A DNA stretch of 46,216 bases from an actinobacterium SCGC AAA027-J17. Its GTDB lineage: Bacteria; Actinomycetota; Actinomycetes; Nanopelagicales; Nanopelagicaceae. Below are positions 2,893 through 31,358 of this stretch, one piece after another. Location of the stretch: NCBI GenBank assembly GCA_000383815.1, contig KB912809.1:1-46216 (forward strand). Reading direction: 5' to 3'. The number at the start of each line of letters is the position of its first letter. The first letter of the stretch is position 1. The translations under genes and the position numbers were made by a program. Under the pieces are notes generated by a model. It was given only the letters and a program-made list of their open reading frames with translations, was not told where the DNA came from and searched no databases.

Positions 2893-3451
2893 GGGCGCAG
2901 CAGCAAATGGTGATTTATCTGTTGCACTAAGCAATGATGAACTTCATATTCTGATCAATCTAGTTGAACAACTACTTGAGTTATTAGGTGAGCGAAACTT
3001 CACGCATCACTACCAATCTGATGATCCATTTGCTCAGTTGATGGCTGCCACACTTGGCAATATTCAATCACCGATTGAGCAGCCCGATGATCCGGTGCTT
3101 CGCAGGTTATTACCAAATGGATATGCAGATCCAGAGAGCGCGGCAGAGTTTCGTAAATACACCGAAGGATCCCTTCGCACTCTTAAACAAAAGCACCTGC
3201 TATACCTGCGTGAGCAACTAGTTTTTCCAGTGGATCATGAGCTACCCAAGGCTGATATTTCGATAACAGATCCAACCCAGTGGTTGATCGCAATTAATGA
3301 TCTGCGCATCGCGTTGGCAGTTAGATTGGAAATTGATGAGGATGGATACAAGAAGTATGAATTAATGCCAGATTCAGATCCACAAAAGCATCTACACGCT
3401 GTTTATTACTGGCTAGGCGGCATTCAAGAGAATTTAATAAGCCACCTTTAA
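2879..3451 (+). CDS. DUF2017 family protein
   Basis: A 190-residue cytoplasmic protein of the actinobacterial DUF2017 family, normally encoded directly after clpS; its molecular function is unknown. The open frame extends upstream to 2789, but that extension lies wholly inside clpS and lacks family-like sequence. ATG 2879, preceded by AAAGAG, gives the usual length and a short overlap with the clpS stop, which suggests translational coupling. The protein is mostly helical, with no cysteines or membrane segments. By position it may act with the Clp/N-degron system, which is inference only. Confidence 0.82.
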
Positions 3452-3455
3452 GATA

Positions 3456-3490
3456 AAAAAAGCGGGACCAATCTCTTGGCCCCGCTTTTT
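3456..3490. terminator. Bidirectional intrinsic terminator
   Basis: A-run, AGCGGG-x-CCA, a short loop, TTGG-x-CCCGCT and a T-run form a stem with A and T tracts on either side. It sits between the convergent DUF2017 gene and actinorhodopsin and can terminate both. Confidence 0.85.
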
Positions 3491-3502: not shown

Positions 3503-4273
3503 TTAAGCGTCTTCCTTCATTCCCTCAGCTACGGATTTCATCCTTGCAATCTTTAGGATTGTTAGACCAAATACGCACTTAGCTGCTACATCTGCAATTG
3601 TGTAACCGATTTGACGGTTAACAAATGCACCTGGATCCAACGCGTCTGATCCCAAAATTGGAAGCAGGTAAGCGATTGGATATACGCCCCATGTTGCGAT
3701 CAAAAGCAAACGTAGGCGACCAATGGTTGCAGCTACGCCAGCTGGCTGACGATCTAGGGACTTTGAAAGCTCGACGAACAATACATACAGAATGTATAGG
3801 AAAGGTATTGTTGATAGAACACCCCAAAGAATCTTGGTGTTGTTATCAGTTGAAATCTCACCTGGGTAACCAAGTGCGATCATTGCAACTGCAGCTGGTA
3901 CTAAGCGGTTGATCAATGAAGAAGCCGCTGCCTTAGCAAGAGCTAGTACTGCTACTACCTCAACTAGTAGAAGAGGTACAGTAAGGATCCAGTCAACGTA
4001 GCGATATCCTTCGTTGAAGTCACCCTTTCCTGTTCCTACCTTTACTGCGCCATCAACATATGAACTCTCAAATGAATTGAAAATTCTCCAGTAGTGGTAT
4101 GCCGCAATGAATGTAACCATTGATGACATAACTAGGGCAGTACGGTATTTAGGAAGTACCCGTGATTGTGAAACTAGTGTGTAGATAGTGCAAGCAAGCA
4201 TTGACACAAGTCCAAATGAAAGGACGTTGTATACCAGCCCGAACTGATCTGCATTAAGTGCAATTGAGTTCAT
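3503..4273 (-). CDS. Actinorhodopsin, light-driven proton pump
   Basis: A 256-residue seven-helix retinal protein. D94, T98 and E105 in RYVDWILTVPLLLVEV form the D-T-E proton-pump motif (proteorhodopsin D97/T101/E108). L102 sits at the proteorhodopsin tuning position 105, which predicts green absorption. H60 is the usual His partner of the primary acceptor. K232 in DVAAKCVFG is the retinal Schiff-base lysine. In helix E, ILWGVLST aligns with bacteriorhodopsin VWWAIST, so G151 replaces W138 and leaves the fenestration used by xanthorhodopsin-type carotenoid antennas. GGAGG lies 9 nt before the ATG, a strong Shine-Dalgarno consistent with high expression. It is monocistronic with a terminator, and no retinal or carotenoid gene is in the window. 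Confidence 0.96.
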   Translation of the reverse strand: MNSIALNADQFGLVYNVLSFGLVSMLACTIYTLVSQSRVLPKYRTALVMSSMVTFIAAYHYWRIFNSFESSYVDGAVKVGTGKGDFNEGYRYVDWILTVPLLLVEVVAVLALAKAAASSLINRLVPAAVAMIALGYPGEISTDNNTKILWGVLSTIPFLYILYVLFVELSKSLDRQPAGVAATIGRLRLLLIATWGVYPIAYLLPILGSDALDPGAFVNRQIGYTIADVAAKCVFGLTILKIARMKSVAEGMKEDA

Positions 4274-4519
4274 CTAAATAAGCCTCCATAGGCATTTAGT
4301 TTGCTCACATCCTTATGGATATAAGCCGGCACACTTTCATAACCCCATATGTAAGCTATGACAGAGCGCTTAGGTAAAGGGTGCTCCCTACTGGCCAGTC
4401 CATCAAGCAAATTGACCACAATTTCTCTTGAATTTTTAAGAAATATCTATATTAAATGGGGGCAAATCGGACATCAACTGAGGATTGGCCGATTCGAAGG
4501 GATATCAGGTTGAGCCATT
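4274..4519. other. Intergenic region between divergent actinorhodopsin and murI
   Basis: About 260 bp, large for this genome. It must hold the rhodopsin promoter on the minus strand and upstream control for murI. I see the rhodopsin GGAGG near 4283-4287, a small ATCC-TTAT-GGAT palindrome near 4309-4320, and TTGACC (4412-4417) and TATATT (4448-4453) motifs on the plus strand that are not at promoter spacing from each other. No RNA gene or convincing ORF is seen. ATG 4456 opens a short frame that runs into murI out of frame. Confidence 0.4.
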
Positions 4520-6883: not shown

Positions 6884-7612
6884 GTGGCCGCAAAGAAGAA
6901 GGCAGCAAAGAAGTCTGCTGCAAAAAAGAGTTCGGCAAAGCGCAGCGTTAAGAAAGTTGCTAAGCGCTCAACTGCTAAGCGAAGTGCAAAAAAGAGTGTT
7001 AAGAAGAAAAGTAAGTCAACAGCACGGTATTCAATTCCATCAGTTCCAGTAAGCGGATCTGGTAGATCATCAGTATCAACAATCTCAACTACTCCAAAAC
7101 CAAATAGCGGTTCTTACTCTTCAAAATCAACAAAGAGTTCAGATGCAGGTTCCTCTAAGGGAATTGTGATCGCTGTTGTCTTGGGTATTTTGATTTTGGC
7201 AATCGCAGTTATTTCTCGAGGTTCAGATTCAGAGTCAACTACTGTTACGCCAACACCTGCTGCTTCAGAAAGTGTTGCTCCAACTGAAGAGCCAACAACC
7301 GAGCCAACCTCTGCACCACTGGCTGCACATGAGCCACCTGCAGGAATCGTCTCTCTTTACAATGCAACTGGCGCAACTGTTAACTGGAAAGCACCAGCTG
7401 CCTCAGAGGGAATTACTGGTTACAACATTGAGCTTCGCGACAATGGCGCGGGTGAATGGAAGTTAGTAGCAACAGTTCCTGCCACACAGTTCAAGCAACA
7501 AATTGTTAAGAATGGCGAAACTGGTTGGGTGCAAGTTAAGGTCTCAACAGTTTATTCAGATGGCGTAGTTTCTGAAGGAAAAGTTCACGGCCTACCAGGT
7601 AGCTGGTCTTAG
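6884..7612 (+). CDS. Membrane protein with Lys-rich cytoplasmic tail and extracellular fibronectin-III-like domain
   Basis: I do not recognise a named family. The 242 residues fall into four parts. Residues 1-47 are almost entirely K, A, S and R in AAKKSAAKK-type repeats like histone H1 tails. Residues about 48-93 are a Ser/Thr linker. Residues about 94-112 (GIVIAVVLGILILAIAVIS) form one transmembrane helix. Residues 113-145 are a Pro/Thr/Glu spacer, and 146-242 are a beta-sandwich resembling fibronectin III (VNWKAPAASEGITGYNIEL). Positive-inside topology puts the Lys tail in the cytoplasm, where it could bind DNA, RNA or polyphosphate. The start is GTG with AAGGAG at good spacing. It is single-gene, flanked by a strong terminator. 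Confidence 0.75.
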   Translation: MAAKKKAAKKSAAKKSSAKRSVKKVAKRSTAKRSAKKSVKKKSKSTARYSIPSVPVSGSGRSSVSTISTTPKPNSGSYSSKSTKSSDAGSSKGIVIAVVLGILILAIAVISRGSDSESTTVTPTPAASESVAPTEEPTTEPTSAPLAAHEPPAGIVSLYNATGATVNWKAPAASEGITGYNIELRDNGAGEWKLVATVPATQFKQQIVKNGETGWVQVKVSTVYSDGVVSEGKVHGLPGSWS

Positions 7613-24900: not shown

Positions 24901-25680
24901 GTGGGCGTGCAATTAGCAGCGGAGGAAGGCTTTAAGCCACCTAGTACCGCTGACTTTAATTTACCTCCAGTATTCGGCGACAACCCATTTACAACAAAAC
25001 CAGTCTTTTTAGTATTTTTCTCAGTAATTTTAATTTCAACCTTTTTCATTGTTTCAGCAAGAAAAGCCTTGATTGTGCCATCGAAGCTTCAATTTGCCGG
25101 CGAATCAATTTATGGATTTGTTAGAAATGATTTGGCAAGAGATGTTATTGGTCATGAGTTTATGCGCTTTGTTCCATATTTATTTACACTATTCACGTTC
25201 ATCTTAACTAATAATTTGTTTGGCATCATTCCATTTTTGCAGTTCCCGACGATGTCTAGGGTCAGTTTTCCGTATGTGTTAGCCATCTTTACCTTTGTAA
25301 TTTTTCACTATGTTGCGATTAAACATAAAGGCCTCATGCCATATTTGAAAGAAATTATGTTTATGCCTGGAGTACCAAAGCCGGTGTACATATTGCTAAC
25401 CCCTATTGAGGTTGCTACTTATTTTATTGTTCGCCCACTGACCTTATCTCTTCGTCTATTTGCCAATATGTTCGCCGGCCACTTACTTTTGCTGGTTTTT
25501 ATCCTCGGTGGTGAGCATCTTTTGCAAGGCGTTATTGGCCTAAAACTGGTCTCACCTTTCGCATTTGCCTTTGGTATTGGACTTACGTTTTTTGAATTTA
25601 TGGTTCAATGCCTACAGGCCTATATCTTTACTCTGTTGACTGCCCTCTATATTGCGGGTGCGTTGGCGGATGAACACTAG
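24901..25680 (+). CDS. atpB: ATP synthase Fo subunit a
   Basis: Membrane stator subunit that forms the two proton half-channels facing the c-ring. The 259 residues include five to six helices and the essential Arg in LTLSLRLFANMFAGH, followed by the conserved Gln-containing last helix (MVQCLQAYIFTLLTALYI). GTG start with GGAG at good spacing. First gene of the complete atpBEFHAGDC operon. Confidence 0.96.
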   Translation: MGVQLAAEEGFKPPSTADFNLPPVFGDNPFTTKPVFLVFFSVILISTFFIVSARKALIVPSKLQFAGESIYGFVRNDLARDVIGHEFMRFVPYLFTLFTFILTNNLFGIIPFLQFPTMSRVSFPYVLAIFTFVIFHYVAIKHKGLMPYLKEIMFMPGVPKPVYILLTPIEVATYFIVRPLTLSLRLFANMFAGHLLLLVFILGGEHLLQGVIGLKLVSPFAFAFGIGLTFFEFMVQCLQAYIFTLLTALYIAGALADEH

Positions 25681-25723
25681 AAAAAACCAAAGCAACACCT
25701 AACTAAGAAAGAAGGAAAAGAAT

Positions 25724-25927
25724 ATGGAAGGCACACTCAACCTGGTCGGTTATGGCCTATCTGCAATCGGACCTGCAATCGCAACAGGCATGATCTTCGC
25801 CGCTTACATAAGCGGTGTAGCACGCCAACCTGAGGCACGATCAGTACTGCAACCGATCGCATTCCTAGGCTTCGCACTAGCTGAAGCGCTTGCGCTATTC
25901 GGTCTAGTTCTAGCTTTCGTACTTTAA
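25724..25927 (+). CDS. atpE: ATP synthase Fo subunit c
   Basis: A 67-residue two-helix hairpin forming the rotor ring. The polar loop GVARQPEA and the ion-carrying carboxylate E54 in [10 protein letters not shown] are clear. The Na+-type residues (Gln 33 positions before the Glu and Ser/Thr just after it) are absent: T21 and A55 occupy them, so it should be proton-coupled. The Shine-Dalgarno is AAGGAAAAG, about 5 nt before the ATG. Confidence 0.96.
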
Positions 25928-25949
25928 TAAGCGCGAGGATTGATAGAAG

Positions 25950-26489
25950 ATGTTTCAACCTAGATATAGCAACTGGGCAGCAGGTGAAGCTGCTAACCCG
26001 TTAATTCCGCACACCGCTGAATTAATTGTTGGCTTTGTAGCCTTCTCATTGCTTTTCTTAGTTCTACGCGCAAAGGTAGTTCCGTTATTTGAAAAAGCAT
26101 TTGCGGAGCGAACTGATGCTATTGCTGGTGGCATAGAGCGTGCTGAAAAAGCACAACGAGAGGCAGAAATTGCCCTTCAGAAATATACCTCGCAGCTCAA
26201 AGATGCACAGGGCGAAGCACAGAAAATACGTGAAGATGCGCGGGTGCAAGGTGCTGCGATTATTGAAGATCTGCGTACCAAAGCAACTGAGGAAGCAACT
26301 CGAATCTCTGCTGCAGCAACTGCAGCGATTGAAGCTGAGCGTCAACAGGCAATTACCTCACTTCGTAATGAGGTTGGTGCACTTGCAACTGAGCTAGCCG
26401 GAAAGATTGTCGGAGAAGCATTAGATGACCAGGTTCGTCAGTCTCGGATAGTTGATCGCTTTATTGCAGATCTGGAGAAGAGTAAATAA
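25950..26489 (+). CDS. atpF: ATP synthase Fo subunit b
   Basis: A 179-residue peripheral stalk subunit. One N-terminal membrane helix (ELIVGFVAFSLLFLVL, about 25-42) is followed by a long charged helix with the typical ERTDAIAGGIERAEKAQREAE start and an Ala/Glu/Arg-rich coiled coil. It lies between atpE and atpH, 2 nt from the latter. Confidence 0.95.
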   Translation: MFQPRYSNWAAGEAANPLIPHTAELIVGFVAFSLLFLVLRAKVVPLFEKAFAERTDAIAGGIERAEKAQREAEIALQKYTSQLKDAQGEAQKIREDARVQGAAIIEDLRTKATEEATRISAAATAAIEAERQQAITSLRNEVGALATELAGKIVGEALDDQVRQSRIVDRFIADLEKSK

Positions 26490-26491
26490 CC

Positions 26492-27319
26492 ATGAAGGTA
26501 TTGGGCGGCTCTAGCAGAGCATCAGTTTTAACTCTGCGTAAATCATTGGCACAGGTTGTTGAAAAACAATCTGCTACTGATGCAGCCGTTTTTGCCACAG
26601 ACTTGTTTACAATTCTTTCAGTATTAAGCACATCAATTGGTGTCAGACGTGCTCTGACAGACAACTCCCGTGATGCATCGGCAAAAGCGGAGCTAATCTC
26701 AAATTTATTTGGGAAAAATATAAGTTCTCCAGCTCAATCACTACTTGCCTTAGCTGCCTCACTTAGATGGTCTAGCCCAGGTGAGATTGCAGATGCTATT
26801 GAAAATTTAGCTGTTGAAGCAGAGGCAGCTGCTGCAGATAAAAATGGCGAGTTAGAGAGGCTTGAAAATCAATTGTTTGACTTTGCCAGAGTGCTTCGAG
26901 CAAACCCAGAGCTTCGCCAAGCATTAAATACCTCAGCTGATACTGATCAAGGAAAGATTTCCTTGCTTGAATCAGTTGTAAAAGGTAAGTATGCAAACTC
27001 AACACTTAACTTACTGCGCCGAGTAATTTCACTTCGCAGGGGCAGAAGTATTGATTCCACATTAGCCGCTTACTCACATTATGTTTCTGCACGAAAAGAT
27101 CGATTAGTTGCTCATGTTAAAAGTGCGGTTGAGTTAAGCGATGCCCAGCTAACCAAGTTAGTTGCAGCCCTTTCTAAGCAAATGGGTAGAGATGTTCATA
27201 TAAATGTTGAGATTGATCCAAAGGTTTTAGGTGGCATTTCAGTGCGATATGCCGATGATGTTATTGATGGCACCATAGTTAATCGTTTGACGGAAGCGGG
27301 CAGGGCGCTCGTAAGTTAG
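26492..27319 (+). CDS. atpH: ATP synthase F1 subunit delta
   Basis: 275 residues linking the peripheral stalk to the top of F1. It is longer than the roughly 180-residue proteobacterial form, as usual in actinobacteria, but not fused to a b-type subunit as in mycobacteria. The conserved C-terminal [17 protein letters not shown]-like motif is present. Spacing of 2 nt from atpF implies coupled translation. Confidence 0.94.
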
Positions 27320-27371
27320 TTTTAACAGGTGCCCACAGCATCTGTTATTTAAAGAGAGAAGAGAGAAAAAG

Positions 27372-29009
27372 ATGGCCGAAGTAAGTATCCGCCCCGAAGA
27401 GATTCGGGATGCACTGGCAAAACATGTCGCTGCATATAAACCAGGAGCTGCCGTAAAGGATGAAATCGGTAGTGTCACCCAGGCAGGTGATGGCATTGCT
27501 CGAGTTGAAGGCCTGCCATCAACTATGACCAATGAGTTGTTAAAGTTTGAAAACGGCACACTAGGTCTAGCACTGAACTTAGATGTTCGTGAAATCGGTG
27601 TTGTTATTTTGGGTGAGTTCACCGGAATTGAAGAAGGAACAACTGTTCGCCGGACTGGAGAAATTCTCTCTGTTCCAGTTGGTGATGGCTTCCTAGGAAG
27701 AGTTGTCGACGCATTAGGTCGACCAATTGATGGCAAGGGTGAGATCAAAGCTGAAGCTAATCGCGCCTTGGAAATTCAAGCACCATCTGTTGTGCAACGC
27801 CAACCGGTTAAAGAACCAATGCAAACTGGAATTAAAGCAATTGACTCAATGACTGCAATCGGCCGCGGTCAACGTCAGTTGATTATTGGTGATCGCCAGA
27901 CTGGTAAAACTGCAATTGCAGTTGACACAATTATTAACCAATTGGATAACTGGAAGAGTGGGGATCCAAAGAAGCAGGTTAAATGTATTTATGTTGCAAT
28001 TGGACAAAAGGGTTCAACAATTGCATCGGTAAAGGGATCACTAGAGGCAGCAGGAGCAATGGAGTACACAACAATTGTGGCAGCCCCTGCCTCTGATCCA
28101 GCAGGATTTAAATATCTAGCCCCATACACCGGCTCATCAATTGGTCAGCACTGGATGTATAAGGGCCAACATGTACTGATCATTTTTGATGATCTCTCCA
28201 AACAAGCAGAGGCTTATCGTTCAGTCTCGCTATTGCTAAGGCGCCCACCGGGTCGCGAGGCATATCCTGGAGATGTTTTCTATTTACACTCTCGTTTGTT
28301 AGAGCGTTGTGCCAAGTTATCTGATGAATTAGGTGGCGGCTCAATGACCGGCCTGCCAATCATCGAAACTAAGGGAAATGATGTTTCCGCCTTCATTCCT
28401 ACCAACGTTATCTCTATTACCGATGGTCAGTGCTTCTTAGAGACTGATTTGTTTAACGCAGGTGTTCGTCCGGCGATTAACGTTGGTATTTCCGTATCTC
28501 GTGTTGGTGGATCTGCGCAAACTAAGGCGATTAAAAAGATTGCCGGTCGTCTTCGTCTAGATCTTGCTCAGTATCGTGAATTAGAAGCTTTCGCAGCTTT
28601 TGGTTCAGATCTTGATGCGGCATCAAAGGCACAGTTAGAGCGCGGTGCTCGCATGGTTGAGTTACTAAAGCAGGGTCAATACTCACCATTCTCAGTTGAG
28701 CGCCAAGTAGCTTCAATTTGGGCAGGAACTACCGGCAAGATGGATTCAATTCCAGTGGTAGATATCCGCCGATTTGAAACTGAGTTCTTAGATTTCATTG
28801 CCAGAGAGCGTAAACAAATCTTTGATGTGATTGCTCAAACTAAAGAGTTAACAGATGAAACTGTTAAATCTTTGGAAGAGGCGATTACTACCTTCAAAAC
28901 CCAATTCAAATCATCGGTGGCAGCAGAGGTAAATGAAAAGAAAGCTGATGCATTAGATGGTGTGGATAATGAGCAAATTACTCGTCAAGTTCCGGCGATA
29001 AAGCGATAA
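27372..29009 (+). CDS. atpA: ATP synthase F1 subunit alpha
   Basis: 545-residue non-catalytic nucleotide-binding subunit. P-loop [39 protein letters not shown] and GLPIIET are diagnostic. The purine-rich AGAGAGAAGAGAGAAAAAG before the ATG serves as Shine-Dalgarno. The C-terminal tail (about 510-545) is extended, as in other actinobacteria. Confidence 0.98.
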
Positions 29010-29028
29010 GAAAAGAGAGCTAAGAAAA

Positions 29029-31358
<2,330 letters not shown>

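Follow-up and report, generated by a model that had tools for sequence, protein, structure and literature searches.

A typical acI actinorhodopsin with an antenna-site glycine and a pocket that appears suited to an apolar or keto ring

Among the closest described systems is the actinorhodopsin of the Nanopelagicus single-cell genome L06 (acI-B), which absorbs at 544 nm and acts as both pump and scramblase (PMC12805836). ActR-13023, from Candidatus Aquiluna sp. IMCC13023, belongs to another actinobacterial lineage; its genome has blh, and the protein, with absorption at 565 nm, is a proton pump to which an isolated actinobacterial carotenoid binds (PMC8113403). According to the same source, an actinorhodopsin with its native carotenoid bound starts to pump faster, the total pH change is not significantly larger, and salinixanthin lowers the rate. 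It was there too that the actinorhodopsins of acI clades A to C were aligned with xanthorhodopsin and the antenna glycine was named, in 2021. More generally, residues of helix F can be used to sort rhodopsins into a hydroxyl side, with Kin4B8 (Y-A-S-Y), KR1 (Y-M-T-D) and EinA (Y-I-T-E), and a keto side, with the xanthorhodopsin of Salinibacter ruber (XR; Y-M-M-A) and Gloeobacter rhodopsin (GR; Y-L-M-L) (PMC12308411). Kin4B8, a freshwater xanthorhodopsin pump, holds the 3-hydroxyl of its carotenoid with the polar helix-F residues Ser208 and Tyr209, and beta-carotene, whose rings are plain, is reported to fail to bind it (PMC12308411). Binding by XR needs a 4-keto ring, and GR, also a pump, binds 4-keto carotenoids.

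The window examined here, a stretch of 46,216 nucleotides, comes from an actinobacterial genome (G000) of 966,562 bases in 81 contigs that is 71.65% complete, and its actR gene (Table 1) is the only rhodopsin gene found there with PF01036. Judged by its sequence, actR is a full, ordinary actinorhodopsin. The nearest solved chains found with phmmer are 9hfk, psXR, GR, Kin4B8 and XR, with E-values from 1e-81 to 1e-65; the best of them, 9hfk (E = 8.5e-82), makes a chance match untenable. The pump residues D94, T98 and E105 (Asp-Thr-Glu, helix C) and the retinal lysine K232 (helix G) are all present. Leucine 102 lies eight residues past D94, as does the tuning site in proteorhodopsin. The alignment places a proline, P126, in helix D, where XR and GR lack one; a proline in the middle of this helix is a mark of actinorhodopsins (PMC8113403). 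On helix E, G151 aligns with Gly156 of XR (3ddl), Gly178 of GR (6nwd) and Gly153 of Kin4B8 (7ytb; also solved as 8i2z), a position held by Trp in bacteriorhodopsin (PMC13093654), by Phe in green proteorhodopsin and by Trp in blue proteorhodopsin (PMC9151804). ActR-13023 likewise has the DTE motif and a glycine opposite G156 of XR (PMC8113403). The L06 protein, compared through the residues named in its description (PMC12805836), is of the same family and probably the same genus: it has leucine at the tuning site, and its N17, F21, Y32 and Y137 correspond to N16, F20, Y31 and Y136 here, one position earlier. A first-pass annotation of this DNA had called the gene an actinorhodopsin with a xanthorhodopsin-like antenna glycine and green-type tuning by L102; the sequence comparisons support all three.

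These features can be followed through an alignment of the window protein with 21 loci of the genus (L012-L032) and the best 80 of 345 relatives (L033-L112), two sets that overlap in some genomes. G151, L102, D94, T98, E105 and K232 are invariant in 21/21 genus loci and in all of the further 80, a sample that leans to close kin since it holds the best 80 of 345. Being invariant in both sets, G151 and L102 are traits of the whole family and not peculiar to this gene. Identity among the best 80 of 345 ranges from 70 to 100%, the protein of locus L039 being the one that is identical throughout, and many records are titled Planktophila, Nanopelagicales, acI or actinobacteria, so that the nearest relatives within this set are acI/Nanopelagicales opsins. 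Several public MAG records with acI-type actinorhodopsin genes (L039, L041, L045, L046 and L050, among others) are titled Bifidobacterium breve, which looks like a wrong taxon label.

The neighbours of actR are genes for ClpS, DUF2017, a racemase-family protein, RNase PH and a Ham1-family protein. As the first-pass annotation had stated, a Shine-Dalgarno motif precedes the gene, and no carotenoid or retinal gene was found beside it among the 40 window proteins scanned with Pfam (the other ORFs of 150 aa or longer except 27239-27748 and 30658-31140, which makes 38 out of 40, plus two smaller ones). The terminator that it had assigned to actR itself has to be reassigned: the hairpin also stands behind the convergent DUF2017 gene, which ends at 3451, and is thus shared. 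It is the single terminator-like site 3' of the actR stop, a number not above expectation, given 1.1 +/- 1.2 such sites in shuffles of the region. A search for a sigma-70-type promoter found none. Elsewhere in the window, F-type ATP synthase genes (24901-31358) lie on the same contig about 20 kb from actR, and 6884-7612 encodes a 242-aa protein that begins with a long stretch rich in lysine and alanine and has no Pfam match.

Table 1. Features of the actinorhodopsin locus (window coordinates) and genes of the carotenoid cluster in the same genome (contig C33, locus L113); scores are in bits where so marked
Feature	Position	Strand	Basis
Actinorhodopsin (actR)	3503..4273	-	256 aa, ATG start; PF01036 E 1.6e-40, above cut-off
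G151 codon, helix-E glycine predicted to open the antenna pocket	3821..3823	-	computed from ORF start; alignment
Shine-Dalgarno-like GGAGG, 9 nt before ATG	4283..4287	-	read from sequence
Terminator-like hairpin, 15 pairs, common to actR and the convergent DUF2017 gene	3457..3490	-	hairpin search
CruF-like gene, cut by contig end	C33 (L113)		PF04240 70.7 bits, cut-off 25
Glycosyltransferase nearest CruG	C33 (L113)		110.2 bits, cut-off 600
CrtD-like enzyme	C33 (L113)		crtI family 307.7, cut-off 238.1; CrtD model 335.3, cut-off 580
Polyprenyl synthase	C33 (L113)		
CrtI	C33 (L113)		527.9, cut-off 238.1
CrtB	C33 (L113)		
Two small lycopene-cyclase domain proteins	C33 (L113)	other strand	55.3 and 65.5, cut-off 39.4

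Carotenoid synthesis genes, whose absence from the genome was to count against an antenna in the first-pass annotation, are present as a cluster on a contig other than that of actR (Table 1). The names CruF, CruG and CrtD are tentative because of the scores against their models. The same gene content and order recur in G001, G002, G003, G007 and G014, the three single-contig genomes of the genus (1,161,863, 1,223,088 and 1,238,108 bases) carry a carotenoid cluster, and phytoene synthase is present in 25/25 genus genomes. From these genes, the product is probably a carotenoid with one beta ring whose other end is hydrated, desaturated and glycosylated. Salinixanthin has a tail of this chemistry, and the glycosylated tail of the XR carotenoid resembles what the CruF/CrtD/CruG-like genes here could make. 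Dwulit-Smith et al. are said to have mentioned a further carotenoid branch in acI as early as 2018. Ring-modifying enzymes of the CrtZ type (PF04116) and of the CrtW/CrtR type (PF00487) were each found in 0/25 genus genomes. The CrtO model (NF045689) was rejected as evidence of a ketolase, as its matches in 25/25 genus genomes, CrtI and CrtD among them, all fall below the cut-off. Separate from these two is a remote CrtO-like flavoprotein of the window's genome (L176:4201-5733, contig C55) that reaches 120.5 where the cut-off is 1000; both it and its counterpart in G003 (L178:4602-6134) directly follow a gene that is photolyase-like by eye.

Which carotenoid could be accommodated can be judged from the base of the pocket, where Y202, L203, I206 and L207 form an apolar surface. 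Y202 occupies the position of Tyr207 in XR and Tyr204 in Kin4B8 and is kept in 101/101 loci. Set against the published residue table (PMC12308411), the helix-F pattern Y-L-I-L is closest to that of GR, with which the protein also shares the glycine pocket; GR differs in lacking the helix-D proline and in binding 4-keto carotenoids, whose formation would call for a ketolase, and none was recognised in these genomes. XR shares the glycine pocket and the tyrosine. Kin4B8 does so as well, but its Ser208/Tyr209 pair is replaced by I206 and L207. At position 206, 101/101 loci have I, L or M; at 207, the genus loci have L or I (21/21), and the best 80 of 345 vary (E, D, N or Q in 11, a gap in 2). With 206 and 207 apolar and CrtZ- and CrtW-type enzymes absent from the genus genomes, lutein and zeaxanthin, which the first-pass annotation had put forward as partners, appear to be poor candidates. 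Its other suggestion, a keto form, stands in part: a keto ring would fit the pocket better than lutein or zeaxanthin, yet it would need an enzyme not recognised here, the remote CrtO-like protein being the one lead. Overall, the pocket looks suited to an apolar or keto ring.

A cytochrome P450 occurs in 20/25 genomes of this streamlined lineage (for example L174:6334-7755, L175:6326-7765 and L173:6300-7034, the last cut by a contig end). It could be invoked to supply a 3-hydroxylated xanthophyll antenna of the lutein or zeaxanthin kind, as could algae in the water, and its PDB matches do include CYP175A1 and LUTEIN DEFICIENT 5 at about 1e-30. However, other P450s match it at least as closely, the top one being a 'putative cytochrome P450' at 2e-50, its NCBIfam matches are terpene oxygenases that all fall below cut-off, and the hydroxyl-holding pair of Kin4B8 is missing from the pocket, so that we regard such an antenna as improbable. 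As to the enzyme itself, its matches speak neither for nor against a carotenoid hydroxylase.

Taken together, the protein can be read as a typical acI (Nanopelagicales) actinorhodopsin that works as a green-light proton pump, with the cell's own C40 carotenoid as the likeliest partner if the pocket is used, a reading to which we assign a probability of about 80%. In outline, a retinal protein with these residues would absorb green light and export protons, and the helix-E glycine would leave an open pocket beside the retinal ring. By analogy with the antenna rhodopsins, the ring end of a carotenoid could enter this pocket and hand on blue light. The cyclic C40 carotenoid predicted from the CruF/CrtD/CruG-like genes would then be the most likely partner. 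For the antenna part of this reading there is a rival that we hold to be quite possible, if somewhat short of even odds: the protein may be a retinal-only pump that merely inherited its glycine, with the carotenoids staying unbound as membrane antioxidants. The apolar pocket base, the location of the crt genes and actR on different contigs and a genus without CrtZ/CrtW-type ring enzymes, on which the known antenna carotenoids depend, are all consistent with it. Since beta-carotene is not bound by Kin4B8 (PMC12308411) and no ring ketolase or hydroxylase was recognised, the native carotenoid may not fit. On the other hand, G151 is invariant in 101/101 loci although it can be lost, as pocketless homologs of Gloeobacter rhodopsin carry Trp or Phe there (PMC9151804), and the native carotenoid is bound by ActR-13023, which is a more distant member of the actinorhodopsins (PMC8113403).

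The source of retinal is a separate matter. The first-pass annotation had looked to a 15,15' dioxygenase in the genome, and neither Blh (PF15461) nor a carotenoid oxygenase (PF03055) was found in G000, a weak result by itself as this genome is 72% complete. Across the genus, Blh was matched in 2/25 genomes and in 0/4 near-complete ones. The RPE65-type carotenoid oxygenase was also considered as a retinal source and set aside, with PF03055 found in 0/25 genus genomes by a search that was positive in 2/14 control genomes. Family-wide, Blh was matched in 92/201 genomes and an opsin in 157/201; among the 99 near-complete ones the counts are 47 and 78, so that at least 31 have an opsin without Blh. 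That acI opsins often occur without blh is already in print (PMC5301498). In the two genus genomes that have it, blh lies between a nuclease-like and a LysE-like gene, both named by eye (G004 C50, L118:8346-9299; G014 C27, L119:4358-5344). Another 17 genomes of the genus, among them the one that encodes the identical actinorhodopsin, have the nuclease-like and LysE-like genes side by side, with 60-140 bases and no blh between them. For the other 6 the site was not visible; one of these is G000, in which the flanking nuclease had no match. A two-gene tree without outgroup joins G004 and G014 as sisters with a support of 1.000. In other genera, 28 blh loci were compared, from 28 of the 90 genomes there that match Blh, and at 28/28 neither of these neighbours stands beside the gene. 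A gain of blh in the G004/G014 pair is the simpler reading, though not a proven one. When these two genomes are compared, the nuclease is 99% alike, blh 89% and LysE about 80%, a difference in likeness that hints at recombination.

Aurantimicrobium minutum is reported to have endogenous retinal, made by a route described as unknown, and a working rhodopsin without blh or diox1, and Rhodoluna lacicola to have needed added retinal (PMC7734400). In the bacterium of the window, retinal is probably either taken up from outside or the product of an enzyme not yet known. Alternatively, the protein of blh-less Nanopelagicus might serve mainly as a retinal-free phospholipid scramblase. One actinorhodopsin from Nanopelagicus has been shown to scramble phospholipids with no retinal present (PMC12805836), and the scarcity of Blh in the genus would suit it, but a scramblase would not need D94, T98, E105 and K232, which are kept in 101/101 loci, and the example of A. 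minutum speaks against it too; we consider this role unlikely. More speculative still, and less probable, is that most of the genus, having retained an antenna-type proton pump and the route to a glycosylated monocyclic carotenoid, combines an undescribed kind of antenna, relying on neither a ring keto group nor a 3-hydroxyl, with retinal made without Blh by an enzyme as yet unknown; candidates for this enzyme would be the remote flavoprotein of CrtO type and the conserved P450.

Antenna glycine, green absorption and carotenoid binding have already been published for relatives, and the idea of an antenna is therefore not new for the family. The present analysis contributes three points, namely the apolar pocket base, the lack of ring enzymes and a blh site that is empty across the genus. 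They were not met in a literature search whose reach did not extend to the main papers on acI, where they may already have appeared. The acI bacteria rank among the most abundant cells of lakes, and the majority of those covered here have an actinorhodopsin. Sequence evidence narrows both the retinal question, as searches of most genus members did not find the known enzyme for retinal, and the carotenoid question, as the pocket would favour an apolar or keto ring over lutein or zeaxanthin. Carotenoid use and retinal supply in blh-less acI decide how much light energy these bacteria can take up.
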